64,000 nucleotides of DNA from an uncultured bacterium (GTDB taxonomy: Bacteria > Cyanobacteriota > Vampirovibrionia > Gastranaerophilales > Gastranaerophilaceae), in the NCBI GenBank assembly GCA_902760645.1, contig CACWHC010000014.1:40017-104016 (forward strand). The letters are read 5' to 3'. This document shows positions 57,778 through 62,969 of this stretch, one piece after another. The position numbers were made by a program, and so were the translations under genes. Under the pieces are notes generated by a model. It was not told the DNA's origin. It was given only the letters and a program-made list of their open reading frames with translations, and did no database searches. Positions within the stretch are counted from its first letter, which is position 1, and each line of letters starts with the position of its first letter.

Positions 57778-57814
57778 GTAGGTTGTGGTAAATCTATGAT
57801 TTACCACAACCTAC
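57778..57814. repeat. 17-bp perfect palindrome at a gene end
   Basis: GTAGGTTGTGGTAAATC, tat, GATTTACCACAACCTAC. It abuts the stop of the minus-strand gene at 57815, and shares ATTTACCACAACCTAC with the cluster at 722-812, which abuts the stop at 817. It may act as terminator. Confidence 0.7.
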
Positions 57815-58114
57815 CTACTGAGTACTGACTAACATTATTAACAAATAAAAAATTACTGAAATTATTTCTATTATAGCACATATAGTATTATTAATTACTG
57901 GTTTCCATATATACTTTTTAGCTAAAATATGAAATATTTTCATTACAATTAGCGGTATTGATAATACGATAATATATATAAAATAACCTAAAAAAATTTG
58001 AATATTACTTAATTGTATGCTATGCTTTCCAAAATTTACACAAAACAATAAAAATATAATTAATATATTTATTTTGTACAGTACATAGTAAATTGAATCA
58101 TCATATTCTTTCAT
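57815..58114 (-). CDS. Small membrane protein, candidate immunity protein
   Basis: A 99-aa protein with three membrane helices (ILIIFLLFCVNF, IFLGYFIYIIVLSIPLIV, ICAIIEIISVIFYLLIMLV). Weak start signals. Its gene contains copy 2 of the 36-base repeat, so its N-terminal half may have been rearranged. It lies beside the MuF-like modules with another small membrane protein gene, as immunity genes often do. Confidence 0.5.
   Translation of the reverse strand: MKEYDDSIYYVLYKINILIIFLLFCVNFGKHSIQLSNIQIFLGYFIYIIVLSIPLIVMKIFHILAKKYIWKPVINNTICAIIEIISVIFYLLIMLVSTQ
58046..58081 (+). repeat. 36-base direct repeat, copy 2
   Basis: Exact copy of 57732-57767, inside the minus-strand membrane protein gene. 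The intervening 278 bases may be a duplication footprint. Confidence 0.85.
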
Positions 58115-58180
58115 AATATTATTCCATTTTGTAATATTTTAAAATTTTTTTGTTTTCATAATTTTGTTATATAAAAAAGT

Positions 58181-58657
58181 TTAAGATGCATCTTCAAATC
58201 TTGAATTTATCCATGGCTTTATTAAAAAGGCAATATAGCTACAAAAAACTCCTCCTAAACTGAATATATAGAAGATTAGTATAGAAGAAATATTTGATAT
58301 GATACTATCCGGGGTGATACTATCTTCTAAAAAATACATATATAAGGAATAAAAGATTATTAATAATATAAAATCAAAGAAAAAGAATAAATTAAGCCAT
58401 AATATCCTGTGTTTCAAGTTACTTTTTAGTTCATTTAAAAATTTATATATAAAAGATTGTTTCTTGCTATTATTATATAAGTACTCCATTATTATAATTT
58501 TTAAAATAGAAATTAAAATACAATATAACAAAGTGCCATATCCAAATATAAAAAATCCATTATCATCAGGCAAAAAATAAAAAGGTAAAACAAATATTAT
58601 CCAAATAATATTTGAAGAAAGGATAACGTTTAATATTATAAATAAAATCTTTTGCAT
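58181..58657 (-). CDS. Four-helix membrane protein, candidate immunity protein
   Basis: A 158-aa protein with about four membrane helices (IILNVILSSNIIWIIFVL, FFIFGYGTLLYCILISIL, LFFFFDFILLIIFYSLYMY, ILIFYIFSLGGVFCSYIAFL). TAATAT lies exactly six bases before ATG: leaderless pattern. It directly follows the MuF-like gene at 58707 on the same strand. Confidence 0.55.
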   Translation of the reverse strand: MQKILFIILNVILSSNIIWIIFVLPFYFLPDDNGFFIFGYGTLLYCILISILKIIIMEYLYNNSKKQSFIYKFLNELKSNLKHRILWLNLFFFFDFILLIIFYSLYMYFLEDSITPDSIISNISSILIFYIFSLGGVFCSYIAFLIKPWINSRFEDAS

Positions 58658-58706
58658 ACTTCTATATTAAAATAAAGGCTTGTTTATTACAAGCCTTTAT
58701 GAATTA

Positions 58707-59864
58707 TTAATAATTTATCCATTTATCATATGGTATTTTGATTTCTGTTATTGTATAAAAGGTTTCTAGTTTCCCTTTTTCTTGTAAATCCCTAGCTGTT
58801 TGTACAAGTATACTTTTTTCATTTGGATTAAAATCATATGTATCTAGTATTTTTAAACATAAATTATCCTCTTCATCTATATGTATATTCATTAAATCAA
58901 CAAAATGAAGTGCATGGTATAAATTCCCAGATTTAAACTCTATTGTCGTATCTTCAACCTGATGATTTTTTATCAATTCATTTTTCATTTCAGATATTTT
59001 ATTTTGAAAGTTTGATGATTTTTGAATATTTCTTGCAATGCTACTTTTATTATTAAAAACAACTCCTTTTGCATTTTCTTTACCCAGTTGTTTTATTACT
59101 TTATCATAAATTTTATTCTCTAAATCTTTATCTTTCAATTCCGATATATAAAAACAAAATTTACCATTTTTTTGAATGTATGGATCATTTTCTAGTATAC
59201 CGGTTATAGACATATCCCATAACGCAGCCGCATCTTTTTCAAATATACCGACCAACCATATTCCATAGGTTAATCCATGTAATTTTATTCCTGTATAAAG
59301 ATTATTTAACTTTTCTTTTAATTCATTTATTCTAAATTCCAGAGTACTTATTTCTTTAATCGTACCGATAGGTTTAAAATTATCTTTATATTTATTTATA
59401 GAAATTTTAGTCTTAATAACTTCTTGTTTATTATTTCTTAATTCTTGCTTAACTTCTTTAATTTTTTCAACCTCAAGCGGCTTTAAAAGTTCAGGATTTA
59501 TTGTATATTCATATTTTTCAATAGTATCCAATTCATTATCTATAATTTCAATGCTTCTATTACATTCAGCCTCAAGACATTTTAAATCACCTTTCAATTT
59601 TTCAAACTCTAATTCAAGATTTTTTTGTTCCTGAATTTTATCTCTGTGATATTGAATTGGGTCAGTTGAGGGGTTCTTTTTTCTTTCAATCCAACATTTA
59701 CAGTTTGGATGCGGTTTATCAGGTATAGTATTTGCATCATCAAAAGTTTTGCCGTCCATTGCTTGACATTTTTCACAAGCACCGGGTTCCGAGTGCCACT
59801 CAAAATAATAATCATTTAAATTTACATTTCCGTACAATGTTTTTGTATTTTCTTTGTTTGTCAT
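58707..59864 (-). CDS. MuF-like/coiled-coil protein with unknown C-terminal domain, copy 1
   Basis: A 385-aa protein. Residues ~22-62 match the zinc-binding end of phage MuF/SPP1 gp7 proteins: FEWHSEPGACEKCQAMDGKT and KPHPNCKCWIE. Residues ~70-190 are a coiled coil. The C-terminal ~180 residues (AAALWDMSITGILE ... LYHALHFVDLMNIHIDEEDN ... KILDTYDFNP) recur in the protein at 61321. The order short MuF end, coiled coil, variable C-terminus fits a phage-derived polymorphic toxin, but the C-terminal activity is not recognised. Its start overlaps the preceding small gene by one base (TAATG). Confidence 0.6.
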   Translation of the reverse strand: MTNKENTKTLYGNVNLNDYYFEWHSEPGACEKCQAMDGKTFDDANTIPDKPHPNCKCWIERKKNPSTDPIQYHRDKIQEQKNLELEFEKLKGDLKCLEAECNRSIEIIDNELDTIEKYEYTINPELLKPLEVEKIKEVKQELRNNKQEVIKTKISINKYKDNFKPIGTIKEISTLEFRINELKEKLNNLYTGIKLHGLTYGIWLVGIFEKDAAALWDMSITGILENDPYIQKNGKFCFYISELKDKDLENKIYDKVIKQLGKENAKGVVFNNKSSIARNIQKSSNFQNKISEMKNELIKNHQVEDTTIEFKSGNLYHALHFVDLMNIHIDEEDNLCLKILDTYDFNPNEKSILVQTARDLQEKGKLETFYTITEIKIPYDKWINY

Positions 59865-60199
59865 TAGATTTCTCCTTCCGTTAAGTTATTTGTTATTTCT
59901 TCCACAAATTCATTTGTATCAATTTTGGTATCGTCCTTTGTTTCCCATACCGCATTATTAGATGCTCCCGTTTTGATATACTCTTTAATCACCTCTAACG
60001 GATAATATTCAAGTGCGGATTTTAACATATCGAAAGTTTTACCCCCGAAGTCGGCATCTTCTTCAAGCCGAACTTGTTCTTCAAGTACGGTTTCTTTTTT
60101 GTAACCTGTTAACAAATTCAATCCGCATTGGAAATCTTTTATTGCCTGTTCTTTACCGACTGCTAAAATATGTTCCCGTATAAATTTCAGAATGCCCAT
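59864..60199 (-). CDS. Peptidoglycan-binding-like small protein, copy 1
   Basis: A 111-aa protein from ATG 60199; a TTG at 60214 with TATAAT five bases upstream is an alternative. The core ILAVGKEQAIKDFQCGLN and EDADFGGKTFDML resemble the C-terminal peptidoglycan-binding part of GH108-type endolysins, which has an Asp-Gly-x-x-Gly-x-x-Thr turn. It is the N-terminally shortened paralogue of 62472-62969. Directly coupled to the MuF-like gene. Confidence 0.55.
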   Translation of the reverse strand: MGILKFIREHILAVGKEQAIKDFQCGLNLLTGYKKETVLEEQVRLEEDADFGGKTFDMLKSALEYYPLEVIKEYIKTGASNNAVWETKDDTKIDTNEFVEEITNNLTEGEI

Positions 60200-60258
60200 A
60201 TTTGACGTACGCAAAGTTTATTATATTTTGTGATAACATAAATCAATAGGAGAATTAT

Positions 60259-60915
60259 ATGGATAAAAAAATTGATGTTACATTTGATTTTACAACGGAT
60301 ACACCAAATTATTGGGAATGTTTTTATGCCGGAGAAAATAGACCGGACCCCGATGCAAAGAGTCCTACAATGAGACAATATCAGCAAATGATTTATAGTA
60401 AAATTTTGCCAAATGGAGAATTTCTAGAGCTTAAACAAAGTAATAATGCTAAACAGTATTTATATTGGAAAGATTTTTGTTTCGGGAGTGATTCGATAAT
60501 TAATATGTACATCCATCACAAAACTCTTCAAACACTAATCAATGATGTTAACAGAGAAATTCCTGACTTTGATAAATTTTATGAAGAATACTTGAGAAAA
60601 AGTTATACAATTGGTGGTGAAATAATTTTCCCTAAATATCCAAAGTCTATAAATGTTGAAAGAGGACGATATAACGGCAAAATTAAAGATAGGTTCGACT
60701 TAACTTTAGAATGTATAAGGCTTTATTATAATAATAAACAAAGTCCACTTTATGATACTTTGAAAGCAAATCACAAATTCTTTGAATTATTTCTTGATTT
60801 CAAAGGTTATGTAGATTTCTTTTATTTAAATGATTTAGTTTCAGATGATTATAAATCTATTAATTTCTACTTAGACTTTGACAATTTTAACAGGACAAAT
60901 GGATTTCTTAAATAA
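60259..60915 (+). CDS. DUF6994-like protein
   Basis: A 218-aa protein; AGGAG before ATG. It has the features I associate with the DUF6994 family: FDFTTDTPNYWECF, DPDAKSPTMRQYQ, YSKILPNGEFLELK, KDRFDLTLECIRLYY and FFELFLDFKGYVDFFYLNDL. Function of the family unknown. It stands between the two MuF-like modules, on the other strand. Confidence 0.6.
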   Translation: MDKKIDVTFDFTTDTPNYWECFYAGENRPDPDAKSPTMRQYQQMIYSKILPNGEFLELKQSNNAKQYLYWKDFCFGSDSIINMYIHHKTLQTLINDVNREIPDFDKFYEEYLRKSYTIGGEIIFPKYPKSINVERGRYNGKIKDRFDLTLECIRLYYNNKQSPLYDTLKANHKFFELFLDFKGYVDFFYLNDLVSDDYKSINFYLDFDNFNRTNGFLK

Positions 60916-61014
60916 ACGTAATAGTCGGATAGATAGAACGTTTAACAAATAATGAAAAAAGAGAGATTCTGAAATTTATAGATAAATATGATAAAAATAT
61001 TATGAGGAATGATT

Positions 61015-61320
61015 TTGAAATACAAAAACACAAGAAAAACTAAAGAATACTACAATATTTGGTTAATAATTTCTATTGCAATAATTTTTATTCAAATAAT
61101 AGTATCTTATTTTAATTACAAAATTATTGATTTATTCTCGGTATTATCTTTATTTGTTTTTGTTATTCCGGTATGGATATGTAATTTTCTATGTAAAATA
61201 TTAATTAAAAATTTTGATACAGCCCAAAATATAAATGCCATAATAAATGGCATTTATATCTTAGTTGTTCAGATAATATTAATAAGTCTATTTGTTATAT
61301 TATTTTCACCCCCATACTGA
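61015..61320 (+). CDS. Small membrane protein, candidate immunity protein
   Basis: About 101 aa. The ATG at 61009 lies only two bases after GAGG, so TTG 61015 (spacing 7) is the likelier start. About three membrane helices (NIWLIISIAIIFIQIIVSYF, SLFVFVIPVWICNFL, IYILVVQIILISLFVILF). It ends one base before the convergent MuF-like gene. Confidence 0.5.
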   Translation: MKYKNTRKTKEYYNIWLIISIAIIFIQIIVSYFNYKIIDLFSVLSLFVFVIPVWICNFLCKILIKNFDTAQNINAIINGIYILVVQIILISLFVILFSPPY

Positions 61321-62472
61321 TTATTTATTATGCTTTTTAAGGTGTTCTCGAGCATATTTTGCATTGGGCAATGGAATACTGACATTTACTATTATATAAT
61401 AATTTTCTAACAAACAGGCTTCCTGTATTTTTCTTGGAATTTTTACTAATTTTTCTCCATAATTATAATCTACGGTATCAAAAATTGTCATATGTAAAAT
61501 GTCATTAGAGTCTAAGTAGATATTTTTAATATATGCATAATTTAATGCTAAATAATTATTTGTCCCTCTTTTTATATCAAATTTTAAAGAAGTATCTTCT
61601 AATCTATTATTTTTTACTATCTTGAAAATATTATTGTTTATAAAATTTTTAATTATAGCTGATTTCATTATACTTTTAGCTAAAGTACTATCATCTTTTA
61701 ATATAATACCCCTAGATTCATTTTGCTTATATTGTTCTTTTACTTTTGTTCTTACAAAGGTTTCCAAATCTTTATTGTATAAATCCGAAATTTTATTTAC
61801 AAGGTATCCATTTTCTGAAATATATTCTAATCCATCTGTAAATTTACTGGTTGCTAATTTCCAAATAGCAGCCGCATCTGGTCCAAAATCTTTATTATTT
61901 TCCACAAGCCCATTAAGCCATAATTGTCCAAATCTAGCTTTAACTATGGCTAATTCGTTATTTAAATTAGTAACGTTTGTACGAAAATGTATTAATTCTA
62001 TAGATTTTTGTTGAAATAGTTCTTCATCACTAAATCTGCCAAGTTCAGGTAATCTGTCAATATATCTGTTTACTTCAATTTCTAACGCTTGGATATCACT
62101 TAATAATTTCTCTTTTTTTTCTATTATTTCAGAGTAGCCAACGATATCTAATTCTTCGTGAATCTTTTTCCTTATCACGCTTAAATCGCCGAGAATTTCT
62201 TTTGCGTCAATTTCAAGGTTGAACTTTTCATCTCGATAGCCGTATAATTTTGCAACCGCTCCCTCGACTATGCTAATTTCCTCAACACGACACTTGCAAT
62301 TTGGGTGCGGACGTTTCGGCAAATCTTTTAACTCAAAAACTTTTCCGTTTAATGATTTGCATTTTTCACATGTGTTTTTTCCGCTCTCACTTATCCAACG
62401 GTATTTTTTCTTTATCGCATAATCAACTTGACCTGTAATTTCGTGAGTATTATCAATATTTCTTGGCTCCAT
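61321..62472 (-). CDS. MuF-like/coiled-coil protein with unknown C-terminal domain, copy 2
   Basis: A 383-aa paralogue of 58707-59864 with the same layout: YRWISESGKNTCEKCKSLNG and RPHPNCKCRVEE, a coiled coil, then AAAIWKLATSKFTDG ... ALNYAYIKNIYLDSNDILHM and TIFDTVDYNYGEKL. The C-terminal ~180 residues keep the same blocks but are strongly diverged. GGAGG before the ATG; overlaps the preceding gene by one base. Confidence 0.6.
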   Translation of the reverse strand: MEPRNIDNTHEITGQVDYAIKKKYRWISESGKNTCEKCKSLNGKVFELKDLPKRPHPNCKCRVEEISIVEGAVAKLYGYRDEKFNLEIDAKEILGDLSVIRKKIHEELDIVGYSEIIEKKEKLLSDIQALEIEVNRYIDRLPELGRFSDEELFQQKSIELIHFRTNVTNLNNELAIVKARFGQLWLNGLVENNKDFGPDAAAIWKLATSKFTDGLEYISENGYLVNKISDLYNKDLETFVRTKVKEQYKQNESRGIILKDDSTLAKSIMKSAIIKNFINNNIFKIVKNNRLEDTSLKFDIKRGTNNYLALNYAYIKNIYLDSNDILHMTIFDTVDYNYGEKLVKIPRKIQEACLLENYYIIVNVSIPLPNAKYAREHLKKHNK

Positions 62473-62969
62473 TATATTTCCTCCTTATTTAAATTTTCTT
62501 CTACATTTTCTATTAAGGTTTCGGGTTCTTCGTCAATGGAATATTCGTAATCTATTCCGACATTACTTTTTGCACCTCGTATAATTGCTTCCTTTACAAC
62601 TTCTAAAGGATAATGCTGTAAAACTTCATAAAATGCAGCGAATGTTTTTTCGCCGTAGTCGCCGTCTTCTTTTAACAGGGCTACAATATCTTTATGCAAA
62701 AAATTCAATCCGCATTGAAAATCTTTTATAGCCTGTTCTTTCCCAACCGCTAAAATATGTTCCCGTAAAAATTCGGCAAGTTCATCAAAAATAATTCTTT
62801 GATTCAGCGGTTCTTCCAATTCCGGATTAACCTTGCATAATTTTTTCATCTGCAAGTACATAATCTCTTGCTTGAGTTTGTCACTAAATAATTTTTCGGG
62901 ACTTTTGTCCAAATCTTTTTTGTTCGGAAAGATAATATCTTCCGTCAATTCTGCATCAAATTTTTCCAT
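62472..62969 (-). CDS. Peptidoglycan-binding-like small protein, copy 2 (full length)
   Basis: A 165-aa protein; GAGG before ATG. Residues 1-60 are polar and helical and are missing from the paralogue at 59864; residues 66-90 hold ILAVGKEQAIKDFQCGLN, identical in both, then KEDGDYGEKTFAAFYEVLQ and HYPLEVVKEAIIRGAKSN. This resembles the GH108-associated peptidoglycan-binding module. Coupled to the MuF-like gene by a one-base overlap. Function uncertain. Confidence 0.6.
   Translation of the reverse strand: MEKFDAELTEDIIFPNKKDLDKSPEKLFSDKLKQEIMYLQMKKLCKVNPELEEPLNQRIIFDELAEFLREHILAVGKEQAIKDFQCGLNFLHKDIVALLKEDGDYGEKTFAAFYEVLQHYPLEVVKEAIIRGAKSNVGIDYEYSIDEEPETLIENVEENLNKEEI

Follow-up and report, generated by a model that had tools for sequence, protein, structure and literature searches.

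The closest described counterparts of the locus analysed here are MuF polymorphic toxins, which temperate phages encode (PMC5576092), and a MuF capsid-type system predicted to serve in delivery (PMC3482391). These proteins combine an N-terminal MuF domain with a variable C-terminal toxin, are accompanied by an adjacent small immunity gene and have relatives near portal and scaffold genes; MuF toxins are described there as exclusively prophage-encoded (PMC5576092). We analysed two tandem modules in a 64,000-nucleotide stretch (the window) of the 1.96-Mb genome (G000) of an uncultured bacterium whose close relatives are Candidatus Gastranaerophilales, a Melainabacteria group related to Cyanobacteria. 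Each module pairs an adaptor gene (A1 or A2) with a gene for a MuF-like protein (T1 or T2) and differs from the described MuF toxins in having only half a MuF domain, a separate peptidoglycan-binding-like adaptor ahead of it and a probable colicin-M-like cargo, and in lying, in the window, outside a prophage. Neither such cargo nor an adaptor partner was found in the parts read of the two MuF descriptions (PMC5576092, PMC3482391). An earlier note on this DNA had regarded the composition as being without a described counterpart, for which the MuF toxins and MuF capsid delivery are precedents.

The C-terminal domain (CTD) of the MuF-like proteins has its best structural neighbours in the colicin M family (PF14859; pectocin M, PaeM, syringacin M), with which it shares the approximate position of a DxYD motif and, putatively, membrane-associated immunity (PmiA, PMC5821083), but it has no detectable sequence similarity to that family, lacks the HR of the colicin M motif DxYDx5HR (PMC5821083, PMC8469651) and is preceded by a phage head header where that family has a receptor-binding uptake domain. 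By description, the type VI-linked effector–immunity pair DUF3289/DUF943 of Proteobacteria, in which DUF3289 is a colicin M homologue, is a precedent for a colicin-M-like toxin that is recognised only by structure and paired with an immunity protein (PMC11148199). The adaptor is predicted to share the fold of the substrate-binding half of TtsA/GH108 muramidases (6v40, 6v3z, 2ikb, 7dnp), the part of TtsA on which peptidoglycan recognition and toxin secretion depend (PMC6996933), but it has no catalytic half, that is, no Glu-containing N-terminal domain.

Taken together, the modules represent a real, recurrent and mobile toxin–immunity system, a MuF-type variant with a probable colicin-M-like cargo and a muramidase-derived adaptor. 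The modular CTD, its linkage to immunity genes and its prophage relatives support the phage-derived toxin and immunity modules that the earlier note had envisaged.

Results and Discussion

Modular architecture of the putative toxin genes

The two tandem pairs with a common layout proposed by the earlier note are present, with all four open reading frames on the minus strand (Table 1) and a one-base TAATG overlap that can be read directly at both adaptor/toxin junctions. Because this overlap is combined with a strong Shine-Dalgarno sequence inside the end of each adaptor gene, just upstream of TAATG, translation of the toxin is probably coupled to that of the adaptor. Identity between T1 and T2 amounts to 45% over the MuF part, 30% over the putative coil and 36% over the CTD, so that the C-terminal domains have diverged, as claimed. 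The adaptors are 48% identical overall and have 21 identical residues in common (REHILAVGKEQAIKDFQCGLN), a core given earlier as 18 residues. Because the same gene pair, when sought in other genomes, recurs in many members of the family, its arrangement is not due to chance.

A search with T2 gave matches in 102 of 191 family genomes, of which some fell in the MuF part and others in the last ~180 residues. The latter form a separate domain, the CTD, which occurs across Gastranaerophilaceae under at least four N-termini: MuF, 'VHVxAYTKxDGTxVxxHYR', 'HPRDxxGKFTFKNGG' and an RHS/MORN-repeat protein. The adaptor and MuF header in turn precedes other C-termini, namely a serum amyloid A (SAA) domain and a GxSxG hydrolase-like end. 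One CTD under varied N-termini and one header with varied C-termini are features of polymorphic toxins. The CTD is also found in orphan cassettes with a gene for a transmembrane (TM) protein and in arrays of alternating CTD and multi-TM genes (L079, L080, L097), in which about 10 kb can contain as many as seven CTD genes or fragments and N-termini are duplicated. At L114:3-2063, the CTD ends an RHS/MORN-repeat protein and no TM gene follows.

Among 292 genomes of the phylum, CTD matches were confined to this family (84 genomes). A scan of 84,980 species genomes returned 58 loci, almost all of which carried the label Gastranaerophilales or came from unclassified gut metagenome-assembled genomes; this survey used one motif, which biases it towards DTYDFN members, the wide alignment being too diverse for pattern scans, and its few oddly labelled loci may be mis-binned. 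No phage-borne CTD was found in viral_contigs with one motif pattern, nor in the phage collection with the T2 CTD as query.

The SAA domains (PF00277, up to E 3.7e-26) sit on adaptor and MuF headers at L118:9340-10008, L106:6689-7438, L121:10342-11046 and L030:643-2160, in Gastranaerophilales genomes and on a viral contig. Serum amyloid A is otherwise known as a vertebrate acute-phase protein. At L030, adaptor, MuF and SAA form one open frame with an uncertain start codon. The GxSxG (GYSLGG) lipase/hydrolase-like C-terminal region belongs to a MuF protein encoded between terminase and portal genes (L095:7754-9109) and has no Pfam match.

Linkage to candidate immunity genes

A short same-strand gene with at least two TM segments, as estimated by hydropathy, followed 54 of 61 CTD genes, compared with 25 of 365 background soluble genes in 41 regions (Fisher p about 5e-41, which is only indicative because the loci are related and not independent). 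This linkage argues for the small membrane proteins as immunity candidates, as the earlier note had proposed, with protection as their predicted role. For T1, the candidate 58181 (four TM segments) lies directly downstream. T2 has no same-strand TM gene; the convergent gene 61009 (three TM segments), which abuts its stop codon, was placed earlier at 61015 and in fact starts at 61009 on the plus strand. A second example of a convergent CTD/TM-gene pair is found at L104. At L124, which is 91% identical in nucleotide sequence over window positions 60991-61511, all that decay has left of the T2 gene is a 3′ fragment of 56 codons, beside an intact convergent TM gene. Such a pattern is expected if 61009 protects against T2, of which it is likely the immunity gene. 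Immunity located in the membrane fits a colicin-M-like action, since the PmiA proteins, which confer immunity to colicin-M-like bacteriocins, contain four TM helices (PMC5821083).

The DUF6994-like protein was the remaining immunity candidate of the earlier note and was rejected: no copy occurs at any other locus examined, so that it is not linked to toxin genes, and it is present in a genome in which the T2 search gave no match (G001). It looks like a passenger.

Recent exchange of a toxin–immunity cassette

Core genes of this genome and of its sister species G071 are 70-76% identical, and most of the T1 adaptor and header DNA is 76-89% identical. Window positions 59436-58167, by contrast, are identical to G071 for 1,270 bp, a stretch that comprises the late part of the coil, the entire CTD and 58181; an identity of about 99% continues to roughly 57,860. 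The synonymous substitution rate (dS) is 0 over 178 CTD codons and 158 immunity codons, and the recombination joint is located in the coil. The cassette of CTD and immunity gene has recently been exchanged between the two species, and the identical CTD and 58181 beside a diverged header and core correspond to the behaviour of a polymorphic toxin cassette. Compared with L124, the ratio of nonsynonymous to synonymous rates (dN/dS) is low (0.03-0.24) in the T1 domains and the immunity gene. The T1 module sits at a different, non-homologous site in G071, where Mu-like transposase and MuB-like genes (L096:3466-5851) adjoin it; a Mu-like transposable element is a possible carrier of the module.

A perfect hairpin with 17-bp arms is located at 57778-57814, just past the T1 cassette. 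Imperfect copies occur at G000:C14:28524, right after an orphan CTD and TM cassette, and at C9:1609; the hairpin is possibly a shared terminator or a recombination-linked repeat.

Fold and likely action of the C-terminal domain

The resemblance of DTYDFN, a conserved motif close to the C terminus, to the colicin M motif had been written down before any fold search. Predicting the structure of the C-terminal domain, as the earlier note had suggested, yielded for T2 a confident AlphaFold2 model (m0df4e06dea6e; predicted local distance difference test, pLDDT, 93) with a mixed alpha/beta, enzyme-like fold and not the helical bundle of a pore former. The best 12 rows of a VIA-align search comprised 11 colicin M-family structures and one Bacteroides type VI effector–immunity complex with modest Z scores of 5.7-3.4, followed by an unrelated row at 3.0. 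Among the 103 distinct CTDs compared, 81 retain DxYD[FY] and seven have DxVDY, the T2 type. The distance of DxYD from the C terminus, about 45-50 residues, is similar to that seen in PaeM, with D241 in a chain ending near 293 (PMC8469651). From this model-based evidence, we hold it to be rather probable that the CTD works like colicin M, acting in the periplasm on a lipid-linked precursor.

Because it has no sequence match to colicin M and no HR, the CTD was not filed as a member of the colicin M family. PF14859 had no match in the window proteins, nor among the families listed for 33 relatives scanned, and a search for the colicin M family in relatives and controls found no members. A weak PF14859 match in G001 (L099) was dropped, as it sits in a repetitive gene. 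Sequence-profile searches of the PDB gave only chance matches, and a BFVD fold search with the CTD model returned nothing significant.

The CTD might instead be another periplasmic or membrane toxin, such as a pore former or a different lipid-linked hydrolase, that resembles colicin M only in general arrangement. Multi-TM immunity is also usual for pore-forming bacteriocins (PMC5821083), and the low Z scores, the absent sequence match and the missing HR would all suit such a toxin. We nevertheless consider this unlikely, though deserving of attention, given that 11 of the 12 best rows are colicin M-family structures standing apart from unrelated ones, that DxYD lies as far from the C terminus as in PaeM (PMC8469651), and that the model is enzyme-like and not a helical pore-former bundle.

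Composition of the header and the adaptor

The CxxC...HPNCxC MuF-like end recognised in the earlier note is present, although it corresponds to no more than the C-terminal half of a MuF domain, positions 59-111 out of 112 in PF04233. With hmmscan and a cut-off of 29.6 bits, PF04233 scored 29.1 bits for T2 and 16.1 bits for T1; in the genome search, T2 together with its frame neighbours reached 30.2 bits.

The model of adaptor A2 (m6d10a6b9cfa3) is all-helical with a pLDDT of 78. In a structural search, the best six rows were all of the GH108/TtsA type (Brucella SagA, Salmonella Sen1395, two NMB1012 entries, TtsA and a Porphyromonas secretion activator) with Z scores of 8.2-5.0 (7.6-8.2 for the first five, 5.0 for the sixth; next row 3.6), values that helical folds can reach by chance but with which weak PG_binding_1/3 Pfam matches agree. 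The best matches align to the C-terminal half of these enzymes, which in TtsA is the substrate-binding domain, the catalytic triad (Glu14-Asp19-Thr28) being located in the N-terminal half (PMC6996933). Neither the structural matches nor inspection of the adaptor sequences revealed a region matching the N-terminal catalytic domain. The model thus supports an adaptor that corresponds to the substrate-binding half of a GH108/TtsA-type muramidase minus its catalytic half, and the peptidoglycan-binding-like character given to it earlier holds at the level of the fold, with binding as a prediction. A BFVD search with the adaptor model gave nothing significant; its weak best viral rows include a phage tail lysozyme.

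A1 has 116 amino acids compared with about 165-173 in relatives, its N-terminal ~50 residues being gone, and its DNA identity to G071 breaks down on the upstream side of about position 60160. The DUF6994 gene (60259-60915) sits where the 5′ end of A1 would be expected.

Prophage relatives and delivery

Relatives of the modules are found in the head modules of prophages. The gene order at L095 is terminase, adaptor, MuF toxin, portal, scaffold and capsid; at L084, the portal gene is separated from the scaffold/capsid genes by two modules and an orphan cassette; and a module adjoins scaffold and capsid genes at L092. On an IMG/VR viral contig (L121), an adaptor and a MuF-SAA gene stand among tail genes. 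The header is therefore, at least in part of the cases, a component of phage genomes, which agrees with the idea of MuF-based delivery (PMC3482391, PMC5576092). The earlier note had held that it would count against a toxin system if the pair were always found inside complete prophages as a normal head protein: the relatives just named do lie in head modules, but other copies, that of the window among them, are located outside such modules, and the CTD acts like a toxin cassette that can be swapped.

On the evidence of these head modules, and with head proteins as the nearest MuF relatives, the locus could be read as a decaying prophage remnant in which minor head proteins carry a structural or ejection-related C-terminal extension and the membrane proteins are holin-like lysis genes. 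The truncated A1 and copies of the pair interrupted by stops in G117 are compatible with decay. This explanation is very unlikely in our estimation: the CTD is also found in proteins that have no MuF, attached to RHS repeats, and in arrays together with TM genes; CTD and TM gene moved as a unit at a dS of 0 and show low dN/dS; the orphan T2 fragment retains an intact TM gene; and no head, tail or terminase genes adjoin the window copies.

That stand-alone position, the lack of a visible secretion signal and the Mu-like transposase beside the G071 module would also suit an intracellular defence, that is, abortive infection or a toxin–antitoxin addiction pair without export. PADLOC, however, found no known defence system in the window, the header derives from particle proteins and is under strong constraint, the putative peptidoglycan or lipid II target lies outside the cytoplasm, and competition between cells typically goes with diversified immunity genes and orphan cassettes. 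We regard an intracellular role as highly improbable.

We favour, with some confidence but well short of certainty, the reading of the modules as MuF-type polymorphic toxin–immunity units with a colicin-M-like CTD that attacks a cell-wall precursor. A number of results weigh against it. Delivery is unexplained for the window copies, which have no adjacent head, tail, terminase or other phage structural gene, and reading of the toxin N-termini revealed no apparent signal peptide. A1 is truncated, the confidence of the adaptor model is middling, and the TM counts are hydropathy estimates. A best Z score below 8 is not proof of a colicin M fold, Foldseek alone gave no significant match for the CTD model, two CTD profiles found no colicin M chain in the PDB, and PF14859 had no match over the cut-off in 20 relative genomes. 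None of the 103 CTDs conserves the HR of DxYDx5HR, and in T2 the place of DxYD is taken by DTVDYN.

The mechanism that we infer for these units would begin with a delivery header derived from phage head and lysis proteins and a toxin composed of a reduced MuF segment, a coil that serves as the recombination joint and the colicin-M-like CTD. Adaptor and toxin would be made together, and the adaptor would probably attach the toxin to peptidoglycan or to a phage particle. Both would leave the cell in a phage-derived particle or upon lysis, routes that may still be open to the stand-alone copy. In the periplasm of a related recipient, the CTD may then hydrolyse a lipid-linked cell-wall precursor (lipid II or a relative) and so be toxic, whereas cells with the cognate multi-TM inner-membrane protein, putatively 58181 for T1 and the convergent 61009 for T2, would be protected.

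The same genome contains a single cluster of scaffold-like, capsid, terminase and portal genes (L187; G000:C18:1-9216), which ends at a contig edge exactly where relatives have the toxin module. Packaging of the window toxins in trans into particles of the C18 cluster is possible but unsupported. More generally, the MuF segment and TtsA-like adaptor might constitute a portable export tag by which stand-alone toxins are loaded in trans into resident phage-like particles and delivered to kin, which we consider a speculative and rather unlikely extension. If true, it would amount to a capsid-hitchhiking toxin system with colicin-M-like cargo that serves the bacterium rather than the phage.

Features and flanking genes

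The features of the two modules are compiled in Table 1. Judged by sequence reading, the flanks of the window locus encode acyl-ACP thioesterase-like, XerD-type recombinase, BioD-like and glycosyltransferase proteins. The XerD-type recombinase has matches to families of phage integrases, and two more distant genes have matches to phage endolysin/transglycosylase families, which is usual for lytic transglycosylases.

Table 1. Coordinates of the two modules and associated features in the window (aa, amino acids; nt, nucleotides)
Feature	Position	Strand	Basis or remarks
Adaptor A2 (165 aa)	62472..62969	-	Open reading frame; helical N-terminal extension and GH108/TtsA substrate-binding-half-like domain; no catalytic half
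Toxin gene T2 (383 aa)	61321..62472	-	MuF-like zinc-knuckle header, coil, colicin-M-like C-terminal domain
T2 MuF-like segment, residues 18-66, CxxC...HPNCxC	62275..62421	-	PF04233 1.8e-6 over profile positions 60-111; TIGR01641 5.6e-7
T2 C-terminal toxin-like domain, residues 191-383	61324..61902	-	Model m0df4e06dea6e, pLDDT 93.0; fold match
T2 motif DTVDYN, residues 332-337	61462-61479	-	Within C-terminal domain
T2 immunity candidate (103 aa, 3 TM)	61009..61320	+	Convergent, abuts T2 stop codon; intact beside orphan T2 3′ fragment in L124
Adaptor A1 (116 aa)	59864..60214	-	Open reading frame; without N-terminal extension of relatives
Toxin gene T1 (385 aa)	58707..59864	-	Open reading frame, domain searches
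T1 MuF-like segment, residues 14-62	59679..59825	-	PF04233 0.02, below cut-off; in-family MuF profile 2.8e-30
T1 C-terminal toxin-like domain, residues 208-385	58710..59243	-	CTD profile 8e-70; alignment
T1 motif DTYDFN, residues 341-346	58827-58844	-	Within C-terminal domain
T1 immunity candidate (158 aa, 4 TM)	58181..58657	-	49 nt downstream of T1; identical in G071 along with CTD; at many loci, relatives come after CTD genes
Second small membrane protein (99 aa, 3 TM)	57815..58114	-	End of exchanged cassette; 97% aa identity, same position in G071
Exchanged cassette, 1,270-bp identical run versus G071:C3 (late coil, CTD and 58181)	58167..59436	-	DNA comparison

Significance

We found no antagonism system described for Gastranaerophilales. 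The modules point to a large toxin–immunity repertoire in these uncultured, non-photosynthetic gut relatives of cyanobacteria and include a recent natural cassette swap with a mapped joint. They extend MuF-type toxins from phage genes to mobile chromosomal cassettes and link them to a target that is probably a cell-wall precursor.

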